A stretch of 64,000 nt of DNA from Nitratireductor pacificus pht-3B (lineage in GTDB: Bacteria; Pseudomonadota; Alphaproteobacteria; Rhizobiales; Rhizobiaceae). Both the position numbers and the translations under genes were made by a program. The stretch spans positions 62,001 to 126,000 of the forward strand of contig NZ_AMRM01000012.1 in the NCBI RefSeq assembly GCF_000300335.1, given 5' to 3'. The notes beneath the pieces were generated by a model that was not told the DNA's origin, did no database searches, and saw nothing but the letters and a program-made list of their open reading frames with translations. Of the stretch, positions 3,739-61,382 are shown piece by piece. How positions within the stretch are numbered: position 1 is the first letter of the stretch; each line of letters opens with the position of its first letter.

Positions 3739-4781
3739 TGAGCGGCAAGGACGGAATCCTCATCGTCGGTGGCTATGGCCATGTCGGGCTGGACATCGCC
3801 ACCCGGCTTTCGCGCCCGCAGTTCCCACCCGTCAGGCTGGCGGGGCGGAATGCCGCGAAGGCACGCGAGGCGGCGGCATCCCTCGGCTGCGGCGGCGTCC
3901 ACATCGATCTCGAGGATCAGACGACCTGGGACCACGCGCTCGAGGGGATCAACGTCGTGGTGGTCTGCATCGACCAGGACGACGCCCGCTTCCCGGCCCA
4001 TTTCCTGGCAAGGGGCATGGCCTATGTCGACATCACCGCAAGCGATCCCTTCTTCCGGGAGGTCGAAGCGCTTGATGAGCTCGCCCGGGAAAAAGGCGGC
4101 AGCGCGATCCTGTCCGTCGGCCTCGCGCCCGGCCTGACCAACCTCCTGGTCAAGGCATGCGCCGACGGTCTGGAGCACCCAATGCGGGCGCGTATCGGCA
4201 TCATGCTCGGCCTCGGCGACGCGCATGGACCCGCCGCGATCGCCTGGACGCTGGAACAGTTCCGCTCCTTCCGCGGAAGAGCCATGCCGGTGGAAACGAT
4301 GCCCTTCGGCGCGCCGCCGCGGAACCATCCGGCAATTCCCTTCGATTTCGCTGACCAGCATGTGGTGCGCCGCACCCTTGGCCTGACCGCGGCGAGCACC
4401 CTGCTGACGTTCGACTCGCCTCTTCTTGCCCGCCTGACGTTTCCCCTACTGAGGTTCATCGCCGCGACCCCGTGGCTGAGCAGGTTCGCCGCGAAGGCCA
4501 TGCTCCGCTTTCGCGTCGGGTCCGATCGCGCCGCTCTCGCCGTCGAGGTGCAGGGACGCGACGGATCGCAGCGGGCGCAGCTTGAGGGACGCAAGGAGGC
4601 GCGGATCACCGCGCTGGTCACCGCACTCGCGGTCGAGCACATCCTTCGCACTGGCGCTCCGGCCGGCGTGCGTCATATAGAACAGGTCCTGTCGATCGAA
4701 ACCCTGGCCCCGGCTCTTCGCGAGCATGGCGTCGTGCTTCGCCTGCCGGACCGTCCGGCGCCCGGGAACGGAGCGGGATAG
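3738..4781 (+). CDS. Saccharopine dehydrogenase-like NAD(P)-binding oxidoreductase
   Basis: A 347-residue protein with an N-terminal Rossmann motif, ILIVGGYGHVGLDIATRLSR, followed by LAGRNAAKAREAAASLGC and the loop VCIDQDDARFPAHFLARGMAYVDITA. This is the pattern of the Sacchrp_dh_NADP domain. It lacks the full C-terminal domain of true saccharopine dehydrogenases and resembles short bacterial relatives found in secondary-metabolism clusters. It is coupled by stop-start overlap to the methyltransferase before it. The TetR gene follows 27 bases later. The reaction is unknown; an NAD(P)-dependent oxidoreduction is likely. Confidence 0.8.
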   Translation: MSGKDGILIVGGYGHVGLDIATRLSRPQFPPVRLAGRNAAKAREAAASLGCGGVHIDLEDQTTWDHALEGINVVVVCIDQDDARFPAHFLARGMAYVDITASDPFFREVEALDELAREKGGSAILSVGLAPGLTNLLVKACADGLEHPMRARIGIMLGLGDAHGPAAIAWTLEQFRSFRGRAMPVETMPFGAPPRNHPAIPFDFADQHVVRRTLGLTAASTLLTFDSPLLARLTFPLLRFIAATPWLSRFAAKAMLRFRVGSDRAALAVEVQGRDGSQRAQLEGRKEARITALVTALAVEHILRTGAPAGVRHIEQVLSIETLAPALREHGVVLRLPDRPAPGNGAG

Positions 4782-59465: not shown

Positions 59466-59673
59466 GGCACAATCTTATTTGGTTCTGCAAATCAACTTAG
59501 CTACCATCTTGTAGAGAAGTTTGCTGGAGCGGATAGATAGCCTGAGCCAACTGGCAAAGCACTGACACGGCCTGATAGGATTAGCTTCCATCAATGCTGA
59601 TCAAGAGAATCAACAAGATTGACGTGCATCTCATACACTTTTCGTGTACGAAAAAGCTAGGAAGCGATGGAAT

Positions 59674-59691
59674 ATGCCCAGGACAGGCTTC
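59674..59691. repeat. 18-bp direct repeat of a tRNA segment (distal copy)
   Basis: ATGCCCAGGACAGGCTTC is identical to 60217-60234, which is the variable-arm region of the tRNA at 60189-60276. The two copies are 543 bases apart in the same orientation. The surrounding 59466-59707 region has no gene. It is a candidate attachment-site scar or partial tRNA duplication. Confidence 0.65.
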
Positions 59692-59707
59692 GGTCGATTC
59701 CTAGAAC

Positions 59708-59736
59708 AAACGCCGGGGTTATGCCTCGGCGTTTTT
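59708..59736 (+). terminator. Intrinsic terminator-like hairpin
   Basis: AAACGCCGGGG-TTATG-CCTCGGCGTTT forms an 11-bp stem (one G-T pair) running into TTTTT on the + strand. It lies between the att-like repeat and the end of the leftward gene at 59753. On the reverse strand it has only a short T-stretch, so it works best for rightward transcripts, for example from the LysE pair. Confidence 0.75.
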
Positions 59737-59752
59737 CATGCCTTAAAGGCAT

Positions 59753-60163
59753 TCAGTTAAAGGTCGTGGGCGCCTGCTCAAAAGGGCTTGTAGAATCCTT
59801 TGGCGCGAAGCGCTTCTCGAAATACCGCTCACCAATATAGACTAATGCCCCCTCGCTTTTCAGCCGCGAGAGAACGGACCCAACCGTATCCTTTGCAACT
59901 GTAGGGACTTTCAGGCGTACTTGCTCATCAACTTCGCCAGTTGTAGCCCCCGATGTTCCTGCGGCCCTCATAATATCCAACACTACGGGTTTAACATTAG
60001 GGGAGCGTGTACGCACCGTTTTCGCCACAGTACCTACAGCGCCTCCCATTTTACCAAGCATCTTTATCAAGAGCGCTTCTTCGACACGTAGCTTTTCTAT
60101 CTCGGCCCGAACTCGCTCCAGCTCTGCTTCGATCATTCTCATTTGATCTCTCGCATTCGCCAT
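59753..60163 (-). CDS. Unknown protein: coiled coil plus winged-helix-like domain
   Basis: A 136-residue protein of no family I recognise. Residues 1-45 form a heptad-rich coiled coil (ARDQMRMIEAELERVRAEIEKLRVEEALLIKML). Residues about 55-120 look like a winged helix (KPVVLDIMRAAGTSGATTGEVDEQV, DTVGSVLSRLKSEGALVYIGERYFEKRF). AAGG lies nine bases before ATG 60163. The gene is 25 bases from the 3' end of the unusual tRNA, on the same strand, and lies within the 18-bp direct repeats. Base composition is lower in GC than its neighbours, suggesting a mobile origin and DNA binding. Confidence 0.7.
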   Translation of the reverse strand: MANARDQMRMIEAELERVRAEIEKLRVEEALLIKMLGKMGGAVGTVAKTVRTRSPNVKPVVLDIMRAAGTSGATTGEVDEQVRLKVPTVAKDTVGSVLSRLKSEGALVYIGERYFEKRFAPKDSTSPFEQAPTTFN

Positions 60164-60188
60164 TTGGATTTACCTTCTGGTTGCGACG

Positions 60189-60276
60189 TGGTGTCCGCAG
60201 CCGGATTCGAACCGGCATGCCCAGGACAGGCTTCAGTTTTCAAGACTGCTGCGTCTACCAATTCCGCCATGCGGAC
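60189..60276 (-). tRNA. Class II tRNA with UGA anticodon on a leucine-type body
   Basis: The reverse strand gives an 88-nt tRNA: acceptor GTCCGCA/TGCGGAC, discriminator A73, encoded CCA, long variable arm and T-arm GCCGG-TTCGAAT-CCGGC. The anticodon loop CTTGAAA gives anticodon UGA, which reads serine codon UCA. However, the D-arm (GCGGAATTGGTAGACGC) and A73 are typical of tRNA-Leu, while tRNA-Ser usually has G73 and a different D-arm. The first anticodon-stem pair is a G-A mismatch. Automated tools would probably call Ser(UGA); its charging identity is uncertain. Confidence 0.85.
60217..60234. repeat. 18-bp direct repeat of a tRNA segment (copy inside the tRNA)
   Basis: ATGCCCAGGACAGGCTTC inside the tRNA variable-arm region, identical to 59674-59691. 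The identity ends abruptly on both sides. Confidence 0.65.
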
Positions 60277-60338
60277 ACACTTGATACGCTATTCTATCGA
60301 CAAAGATCTGTCAATTGATATCTCATTGATAGGGGAAT

Positions 60339-61382
60339 TTATAAATCTGCAAGCCATTCGATCCAGCGGCCGTGAAAGTCGCATCGCGCCAGGTCGCGCG
60401 TCGTTCCTTCCGGCCAGAGAGTGAGCTGGACGAGCGCGTAGGGTTCGTTCGCACTGCCCGGCTCCATGCGCAGCCAGGCGATCGGCGCGCCACCGGCAGC
60501 GCCTGCGACCGCCAGAGCCGCCGCAATGCGCTGGCGCGTCGGCACCGGCAGATACTGCCACATGATCGAGTGAAACAGCACGAACACGGCGTCGCTGCGT
60601 CGCCCGGCCAATGCGCGCTCGACGAAGATTGCGGCATCCTCCCGTTCCAATTGATACGGTTCATGCGCGGCGAGGCCGATGGCCGCCGCAAGCCGTTCGA
60701 GCCGCGCGGTCTGGTCGGCCCAGACATAGGATGTCAGGCGCAGCCTTTCATCTGGCAGCGACACGTCTATGGGCGCGATGTCGCTGCCCCGGCGGCCGGC
60801 GACATGGAGCGCACCCTCGAGGACCGGCGCCCCGCCCCGCACTTCCGGCGCAAGCTGCACGGAAGCGCTGCCCTCGCCCCAGGCGGCGTCGCCATAGCGG
60901 TAGTGGAACCGGTCGAACAGCAGGTTCAGGCCAGCGCTCGAGCCGATCTCGTGGAGATCGAGCGGCAGGCCCGTCTCCCGCGCAATGGCGAGAAACCCCG
61001 GCAGAAGCATCGCCGAACGGCCGATCTCATTGGTCTGCGGCGCGCTGTCGAGATTGGTGCAGAGCCGGTCGTCATGCCCGGCGATGGCGTTTGCGACGGC
61101 TTGGCGCAGCGCGGTTTCCGAAACCGCGTTGGGCGGATAGGCGGCGGCAAGCACCGTGTCATGGCCGGACAGGACCAGCCCATGCAACCCGCCGCAAAGA
61201 CGCAGCGCCAGCGCATCCCCGCGCGGATCGCCGGGCCATTCCAGAACCCGCCGCCCCGTCTGCGTGTCAGCTTCAAGCAGATCGGGCAGCAGCCGGCAGA
61301 GACGCGCCGTGAAGGGCGAACCCATGCGGTCGCAGGCCTGCGCCTGCTTCTCGAAATGTCCGGCGATGTCGTTCCTGTCCAT
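60339..61382 (-). CDS. DUF2332 family protein
   Basis: About 347 residues matching the DUF2332 pattern: FEKQAQACDRMGSPFTARLCRLLPDLL, TNEIGRSAMLLPGFLAIARETGLPLDLHEIGSSAGLNLLFDRFHYRYG and, near the end, VFVLFHSIMWQYLPVPTRQRIAAAL. The HEIGSSAGLNL segment resembles a methyltransferase motif I, so a SAM-binding fold is possible. ATG 61382 follows GAGGGC; an upstream TTG at 61409 is less likely. The function is unknown. Confidence 0.85.
   Translation of the reverse strand: MDRNDIAGHFEKQAQACDRMGSPFTARLCRLLPDLLEADTQTGRRVLEWPGDPRGDALALRLCGGLHGLVLSGHDTVLAAAYPPNAVSETALRQAVANAIAGHDDRLCTNLDSAPQTNEIGRSAMLLPGFLAIARETGLPLDLHEIGSSAGLNLLFDRFHYRYGDAAWGEGSASVQLAPEVRGGAPVLEGALHVAGRRGSDIAPIDVSLPDERLRLTSYVWADQTARLERLAAAIGLAAHEPYQLEREDAAIFVERALAGRRSDAVFVLFHSIMWQYLPVPTRQRIAAALAVAGAAGGAPIAWLRMEPGSANEPYALVQLTLWPEGTTRDLARCDFHGRWIEWLADL

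Follow-up and report, generated by a model that had tools for sequence, protein, structure and literature searches.

A leucine-bodied tRNA with a serine UGA anticodon belongs to a rare conserved cassette in Nitratireductor pacificus

The tRNA gene at positions 60189-60276 (minus strand) of the window, the 64,000-nucleotide stretch of the Nitratireductor pacificus pht-3B genome analysed here, combines a leucine-type body with the anticodon UGA, which reads the serine codon UCA, and it does not stand alone but belongs to a conserved cassette that is rare. The cassette consists of the tRNA, a gene for a 136-aa protein (ORF136) and a hairpin whose apical part repeats the variable arm of the tRNA. 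We directly observed the anatomy of these parts, the foreign island in which they lie, a homologous second locus in a Methylocystis MAG, the retention of the tRNA fold and anticodon between the two loci, and a linked change of the variable arm and the hairpin. The reading that we prefer is a rare, horizontally moved tRNA-plus-regulator cassette whose tRNA puts leucine at UCA, and we give it a probability of about one half.

ARAGORN calls the gene tRNA-Ser(tga), and it matches Rfam RF00005 with 57.4 bits (E 9.4e-10). It is a class II tRNA, continuous over 88 nt and without an intron, with the anticodon TGA at 60240-60242 (minus strand; position 35 of the gene), an acceptor stem that is paired throughout and a CCA encoded in the genome. 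The 7-bp acceptor stem and the 5-bp T stem make an ordinary 7/5 body. A preceding reading of the letters alone (hereafter the sequence-only reading) had described a leucine-type D-arm and discriminator, an anticodon loop CTTGAAA giving UGA, and a G-A mismatch topping the anticodon stem; all of these are present, as the D-arm GCGGAATTGGTAGACGC with A73, as that same loop, from which ARAGORN also reads tga, and as G.A at 27.43. The mismatch may weaken decoding. Two simple origins were excluded: a hybrid made by integration into a tRNA, because the acceptor stem is fully matched, and a tRNA-Leu(UAA) split by a group I intron, because the gene is continuous at 88 nt.

The claim of a leucine body under a serine anticodon was supported by profile scoring. 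We compared the window tRNA with identity profiles of 52 Leu and 14 Ser tRNAs with the anticodons masked, six Leu-bodied UGA genes having been removed from the Ser set beforehand. It scored 54.5 bits with the LEU profile and 6.8 bits with the SER profile, a difference of +47.7. When each of the 52 Leu tRNAs was left out in turn, the LEU scores ran from 32.9 to 73.2 bits, a range that includes that of the window tRNA; 28 of the 52 had no SER match and the other 24 differed by +18.3 to +67.8. The 14 Ser tRNAs treated in the same way gave SER scores of 54.8-76.6 bits, a range in which the window tRNA does not fall, and LEU minus SER differences of -68.8 to -47.4. By eye in the alignment, A73, the D arm, A20a and the two unpaired bases after the variable stem are those of the genome's own Leu genes, and A20a, G18-G19, the large variable region and the standard T loop are leucine features; the leucine anticodon (NAG or YAA) is absent, with UGA in its place. 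The anticodon arm GTCTTGAAAAC, on the other hand, is that of normal Ser(UGA) genes: it is carried with T31-A39 by all six distinct normal Ser(UGA) genes compared and differs from the Leu(UAA) arm. Therefore the body is leucine and the anticodon arm serine-like, so that the word chimeric used in the sequence-only reading fits, and a simple A35G mutation of Leu(UAA) is ruled out as the whole story because the arm has the T31-A39 of the Ser(UGA) genes.

The bacterial Leu and Ser identity sets were taken from the relevant part of PMC9976931. The window tRNA has three of the six Ser elements (C72, C11-G24 and G30-C40) and lacks G73, G2-C71 and R4-Y69, having A73, T2-A71 and C4-G69 instead. According to that part of PMC9976931, A73 is crucial for E. 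coli LeuRS and the anticodon is no determinant. In an excerpt of PMC12269064, leuW, leuX and leuZ given a UGA anticodon reassigned TCA well to leucine. These published rules, which come from E. coli and may not hold in this organism, lead us to expect leucine charging of the window tRNA.

The gene is an extra one. The genome to which the window belongs (G000; 4.47 Mb in 51 contigs) has 44 tRNA matches, and ARAGORN run on these 44 places gave Ser genes with the anticodons TGA, CGA, GCT and GGA, the window gene being a second Ser TGA, and Leu genes with TAA, CAA, TAG, CAG and GAG; an ordinary Ser(UGA) gene is thus present along with the usual Ser and Leu genes, and the window gene comes on top of them. 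The sequence-only reading had suggested looking for such a second, normal Ser(UGA) gene, and had named as a possibility that the window tRNA is the sole conserved Ser(UGA) tRNA throughout the order. The latter is excluded, since the normal copy exists and the window tRNA turned up in none of the other genomes sampled from the order. With the tRNA as a blastn query, 53 of 100 relatives, the window's own genome included, gave a match, every non-self match reaching at most 53.6 bits, and all 29 of the loci among relatives that were typed by ARAGORN are ordinary Leu genes. A pattern for a Leu body with any NGA anticodon was found in 1 of 397 genomes of the order and one for a Leu body with UGA in 1 of 385 genomes of the class, in each case the window's own, although such tRNAs may have been missed because these patterns permit no mismatch. 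The codon concerned is rare here, with 1.1 UCA per 1000 codons (4 of 3668 in ten neighbouring ORFs), so that leucine at UCA would cost the host little and an AT-rich invader more. Modification of U34 can widen UGA decoding to UCG, which would raise the cost, and changes at 27-43 can raise wobble.

The cassette lies in an 883-bp foreign island (59466-60348) between a LysE-type gene and a DUF2332 gene, recognised by congener comparison and by its GC content, which is 48.9% against 65-68% in the flanks. The foreign-looking gene that had been said to adjoin the tRNA is ORF136, and it does sit in this AT-richer island. At all seven congener loci examined (G001-G007; G008 and G009 lay outside the search) the island is absent: the gap between the LysE-type and DUF2332 genes is 3, 205, 105, 83, 15, 144 and 206 bp there and 883 bp in the window, and ARAGORN found no tRNA at any of the seven. 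A locus from another family (L217), which aligned within the DUF2332 gene only, was left out of the congener count. The island holds no recombinase-sized ORF; its ORFs of at least 80 aa besides ORF136 are overlapping frames only.

ORF136 (59753-60163, minus strand) starts 25 bp past the tRNA on the same strand, and the two may share one transcript. A putative promoter region upstream of the tRNA (60291-60314, minus strand) has a TTGACA motif in common with the Methylocystis locus, and a stem-loop after ORF136 (59708-59734, minus strand) with a short T tract is a possible terminator; the promoter and terminator scan called none at the tRNA or after ORF136, these two places included, and gave one promoter-like site within ORF136 that is not above chance. 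The AlphaFold2 model, made from two sequences, predicts a long N-terminal helix (residues 4-38) and a C-terminal winged helix (58-116), with a mean pLDDT of 78.7 and a pTM of 0.49. Searches of Pfam, PHROGs and NCBIfam assigned ORF136 to no family at E below 0.01, PADLOC gave nothing up to E 0.1, and no solved structure is related to it by sequence below E 0.05. Foldseek with the model returned winged helices of many kinds, none at E <= 0.001, and the RNA-hairpin-binding winged helix of SelB was among these weak matches (E 0.05). The protein was found in 1 of 100 relatives and in 1 of 398 genomes of the phylum sample, both times its own genome, and in 3 of 397 genomes of the order, namely its own and two with weak matches. 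No member of the family was found in phages or, in a collection-wide scan, in viral contigs. The plasmid search gave one match to ORF136, at E 0.07, and none to its Methylocystis homolog. The idea of a code-locked neighbour gene found no support: ORF136 contains no UCA codon and the Methylocystis homolog has one in 135 codons including the stop.

That homolog belongs to a second cassette, which a pattern scan of genome contigs located in a Methylocystis MAG (L164, G483). There, a Leu-body UGA tRNA (L223:1350-1438), found by the pattern scan and ARAGORN, is directly followed on the same strand by an ORF136 homolog (L223:1460-1864), and then by a stem-loop, a second irregular tRNA and a hairpin with a copy of the variable arm. 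The two proteins share 47% identity across 124 aa, with a pairwise E of 2e-35. The MAG was the only one of ten genomes behind our loci, and the only one of 149 in its own family, to have an ORF136 homolog; like the window's genome, it carries an ordinary Ser(UGA) gene besides. When aligned, the UGA tRNAs of the two loci agree in 75 of 89 columns with the anticodon loop unchanged, and each is the other's nearest among the class II tRNAs compared (next best 0.769 for the window tRNA and 0.800 for the Methylocystis one). Between them, the pairs 2:71, 29:41 and 51:63 are changed on both sides in a compensatory manner and 6:67, 7:66 and 49:65 on one side; no acceptor, anticodon or T-stem pair is broken, and 27.43 is unpaired in both. 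The two protein genes differ at 54, 49 and 91 of the first, second and third codon positions over 133 aligned codons, a distribution which, judged from the sequences, resembles that of a constrained protein. Directly upstream of the Methylocystis cassette lies a transposase gene of the IS1595 type (ISXO2-like). The second irregular tRNA there (L223:1909-1985), between the ORF136 homolog and the hairpin, has a 6-nt anticodon loop according to ARAGORN and received no assignment. Next to the cassette, a small protein encoded at L223:2183-2629 (minus strand) looks by eye like a coiled coil plus a winged helix and has no Pfam match; relatives of it with 30-38% identity occur in five plasmid records from Alphaproteobacteria, and one of these matches overlaps an annotated IS1595 transposase.

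At both loci the variable arm of the tRNA is repeated downstream. In the window, 18 bases of it (60217-60234, minus strand) recur exactly at 59674-59691 (minus strand) within the hairpin (59660-59701, minus strand), and these are the only two exact copies in the genome; six further sites have 2-3 mismatches, compared with two for the reversed control pattern. None of 2000 first-order Markov shuffles reached a repeat of this length, the longest having 14 bases. The hairpin, identified by folding and by the same element at the Methylocystis locus, has a folding z of -2.83 (2 of 200 shuffles fold equally well), and the Methylocystis hairpin has one of -2.81. The Methylocystis repeat is exact over 14 bases, a length reached in none of 2000 shuffles, the tRNA copy being longer by one base. 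A hairpin pattern was matched in no viral contig, and among 250 loci only in those of the two cassettes. The repeat differs between the window and Methylocystis at three positions, and at all three the two copies of each locus agree, which argues against a dead gene. The sequence-only reading had mentioned att-like repeats beside the tRNA: such a repeat does exist (59674-59694 and 60217-60237, alike in 20 of 21 bases), and reading it as att-like is probably wrong. Since the 5' half of the tRNA on one side and TTCCATCGCTTCC on the other are conserved between the loci outside the repeats, these are unlikely to mark the borders of what was transferred; the island, too, extends past both copies, which speaks against an attL/attR element flanked by integrase sites.

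How the parts of the cassette might work together can be proposed as follows. LeuRS would charge the tRNA with leucine, as the published identity rules suggest because the enzyme relies on A73 and the D/T-loop core and takes no account of the anticodon. The ribosome would then insert leucine at UCA and perhaps at UCG too. The winged-helix protein may bind, as DNA or RNA, the segment common to the variable arm and the hairpin, a step for which there is less support, and could control the tRNA there. Binding to both copies would explain their joint change. The variable arm of E. coli tRNA-Leu tolerates change without loss of charging and so could hold a protein site. With the full cassette at two loci only, the linked change rests on three positions, and the distal copy, lying beyond the possible terminator, may be outside the transcript. 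Against this reading also stand the extra variable-arm base relative to the copy in Methylocystis, the irregular tRNA that intervenes there and the partial Ser set. The complete scheme, a natural regulated mistranslation cassette in which a mobile leucyl-tRNA overwrites UCA serine and is switched by the winged-helix protein through the variable-arm site, we regard as unlikely in all its parts together.

The other explanations make different use of the same observations. The repeat could be a core site for recombination (an integrase site) or the hairpin that ends a single-strand transposon (IS200/IS605-like), with the tRNA and ORF136 as passengers, which would account for a direct repeat, exact over 18 bases, that brackets most of the gene, for its hairpin form in both loci, for the foreign island and for the transposase gene directly upstream in Methylocystis; we think this possible though improbable, because sequence is conserved outside both repeats (the tRNA 5' half and TTCCATCGCTTCC), there is no third exact copy in the genome and the island holds no ORF of recombinase size. 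If instead an accessory tRNA and gene had simply been left by a mobile element, neutral and being lost, their rare and patchy occurrence, the mismatch at 27.43 and the lack of a promoter call at the tRNA would be natural, and one decayed copy of Leu(UAA) that reads UGA was indeed seen at another locus, L122. Two diverged copies with compensatory changes and an identical anticodon loop, frames open in both loci and codon-position differences of 54, 49 and 91 speak against such a relic, and we doubt it somewhat more.

A decoy or scaffold of tRNA shape that does not decode, serving for example as bait for an anticodon nuclease or as an RNA target of ORF136, would suit a tRNA that is accompanied by a mimic of its variable arm and by a protein with a predicted winged helix, as well as the weak SelB match at E 0.05; ties of irregular allo-tRNA-like sequences to transposons and toxin-antitoxin systems have been proposed in an excerpt of PMC7609411. 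We find it distinctly unlikely, since the window tRNA keeps the loop and proximal stem of normal UGA tRNAs, neither of which a bait for another tRNA's nuclease would need, and the structural matches are winged helices of many kinds with none at E <= 0.001. The preferred leucine reading has a direct opponent in a strongly diverged, serine-charged tRNA-Ser that adds UCA decoding for an AT-rich mobile element. Its anticodon arm is indeed like that of normal Ser(UGA), C72, C11-G24 and G30-C40 are in place, and odd-bodied natural tRNAs can accept serine, as the allo-tRNAs do according to the same excerpt of PMC7609411. With A73 rather than G73, no G2-C71 or R4-Y69, 6.8 bits in the SER profile against 54.8-76.6 for the 14 Ser tRNAs and a Ser(UGA) tRNA already in the cell, however, we consider serine charging very improbable.

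Among known systems, the closest are the engineered Leu tRNAs with UGA or CGA anticodons in Syn61-derived E. coli, which in an excerpt of PMC12269064 have the same kind of Leu body with UGA and turn TCA to leucine. They were made by man through a change of the anticodon, whereas the window tRNA is natural and comes with a protein gene and a hairpin, and its cell has its own Ser(UGA) tRNA. The allo-tRNAs (Mukai et al. 2017, as described in part of PMC7609411) are natural and bacterial and have a mismatch of body and anticodon as the window tRNA does, and some irregular ones overlap transposon genes or sit in polycistrons; they have, however, Ser-type identity and a 12-bp acceptor branch of 8/4 or 9/3, against the 7/5 leucine body here. 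Similar too are the alloacceptor anticodon shifts, described in an excerpt of PMC3923123, by which a tRNA gene changes its amino acid family, mostly at position 35; those were found by synteny among host genes, whereas the window tRNA is a mobile extra whose whole anticodon arm is Ser(UGA)-like. Phage-borne matches are annotated tRNA-Leu or unannotated, among the matches listed, and five matches in plasmid records are Leu genes that, unlike the window tRNA, keep leucine anticodons (four UAA, one CAA). We found no description of a natural bacterial Leu-body tRNA with a serine anticodon in titles and abstracts, a coverage with most subscription journals outside it.

Laboratories make serine-anticodon leucine tRNAs to scramble invading genes. 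If the mistranslation reading is true, the cassette would be a natural counterpart with its own regulator, and evolution would be exploiting the ambiguity of sense codons much as the laboratories do. Its harm to a GC-rich host would be far smaller than that to stressed hosts or to invaders rich in AT and UCA, so that it could work in defence, under stress or as an addiction module. How a regulatory or recombination site can be concealed within a functional tRNA could be tested directly on the shared variable-arm segment. Should the tRNA turn out serine-charged or silent, it would be a clean case of body-anticodon drift on mobile DNA.

Similar tRNAs were seen elsewhere. A viral scan with a spacing that fits the known cases gave three contigs, and their Leu-bodied UGA tRNAs are at L086:4876-4957, L087:8285-8370 and L221:3918-4002; a tRNA-Gly that overlaps a tmRNA call lies in L086 as well. 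A Mucilaginibacter locus (L154) resembles a Leu-bodied UGA tRNA, and ARAGORN gives no call there. In another MAG (L122), a Leu(UAA) gene and a decayed copy 3 kb off that reads UGA lie at 1195-1282 and 4119-4206; this copy, unlike the window tRNA, looks like the product of a plain A35G change in Leu(UAA). Among L086, L087, L221, L154, L122 and L164, the cassette was found only with L164, and an ORF136 homolog is present in the genome of L164 and absent from that of L122. One of the weak ORF136 relatives is a 205-aa protein encoded at L229:1462-2079 (minus strand), with E 5.4e-4 in the order search and an hhalign probability of 74%. It adjoins a 74-nt class I tRNA with the serine anticodon GCU (L229:1292-1365), whose nearest matches among the compared tRNAs are Arg genes (0.70 and 0.69), and an IS1-type transposase gene lies beside the two. 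As a similar arrangement, this tRNA and the weak relative are suggestive only.

Searches with a pattern of the D-arm and TTGAA met many mimics, with at least 119 matches in genome contigs. We examined 130 matches (119 listed, 10 in viral contigs and the window locus), of which ARAGORN found five to be continuous tRNAs, namely L086, L087, L090 (the window), L122 and L164. In the remaining 125 the T-arm motif follows 257-440 bases on in 107, at other distances in 7, and is not within reach in 11; a distance of 257-440 bases is what an intron interrupting the anticodon of tRNA-Leu(UAA) should give. Eight such loci were sampled: Rfam Intron_gpI scored above the gathering score in two and, at E <= 0.01, below it in four, and had no match in L091 and L205. 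Among the matches listed (L091-L209), tRNA-Leu(UAA) genes apparently split by a group I intron, which mimic UGA in pattern searches, are widespread, occurring in many Achromobacter and in several Sphingomonas, Caulobacter and Stutzerimonas genomes. Four plasmids of 93-816 kb (L075-L078) carry Leu(UAA) genes, and those of L075 and L076 are near other tRNA genes.
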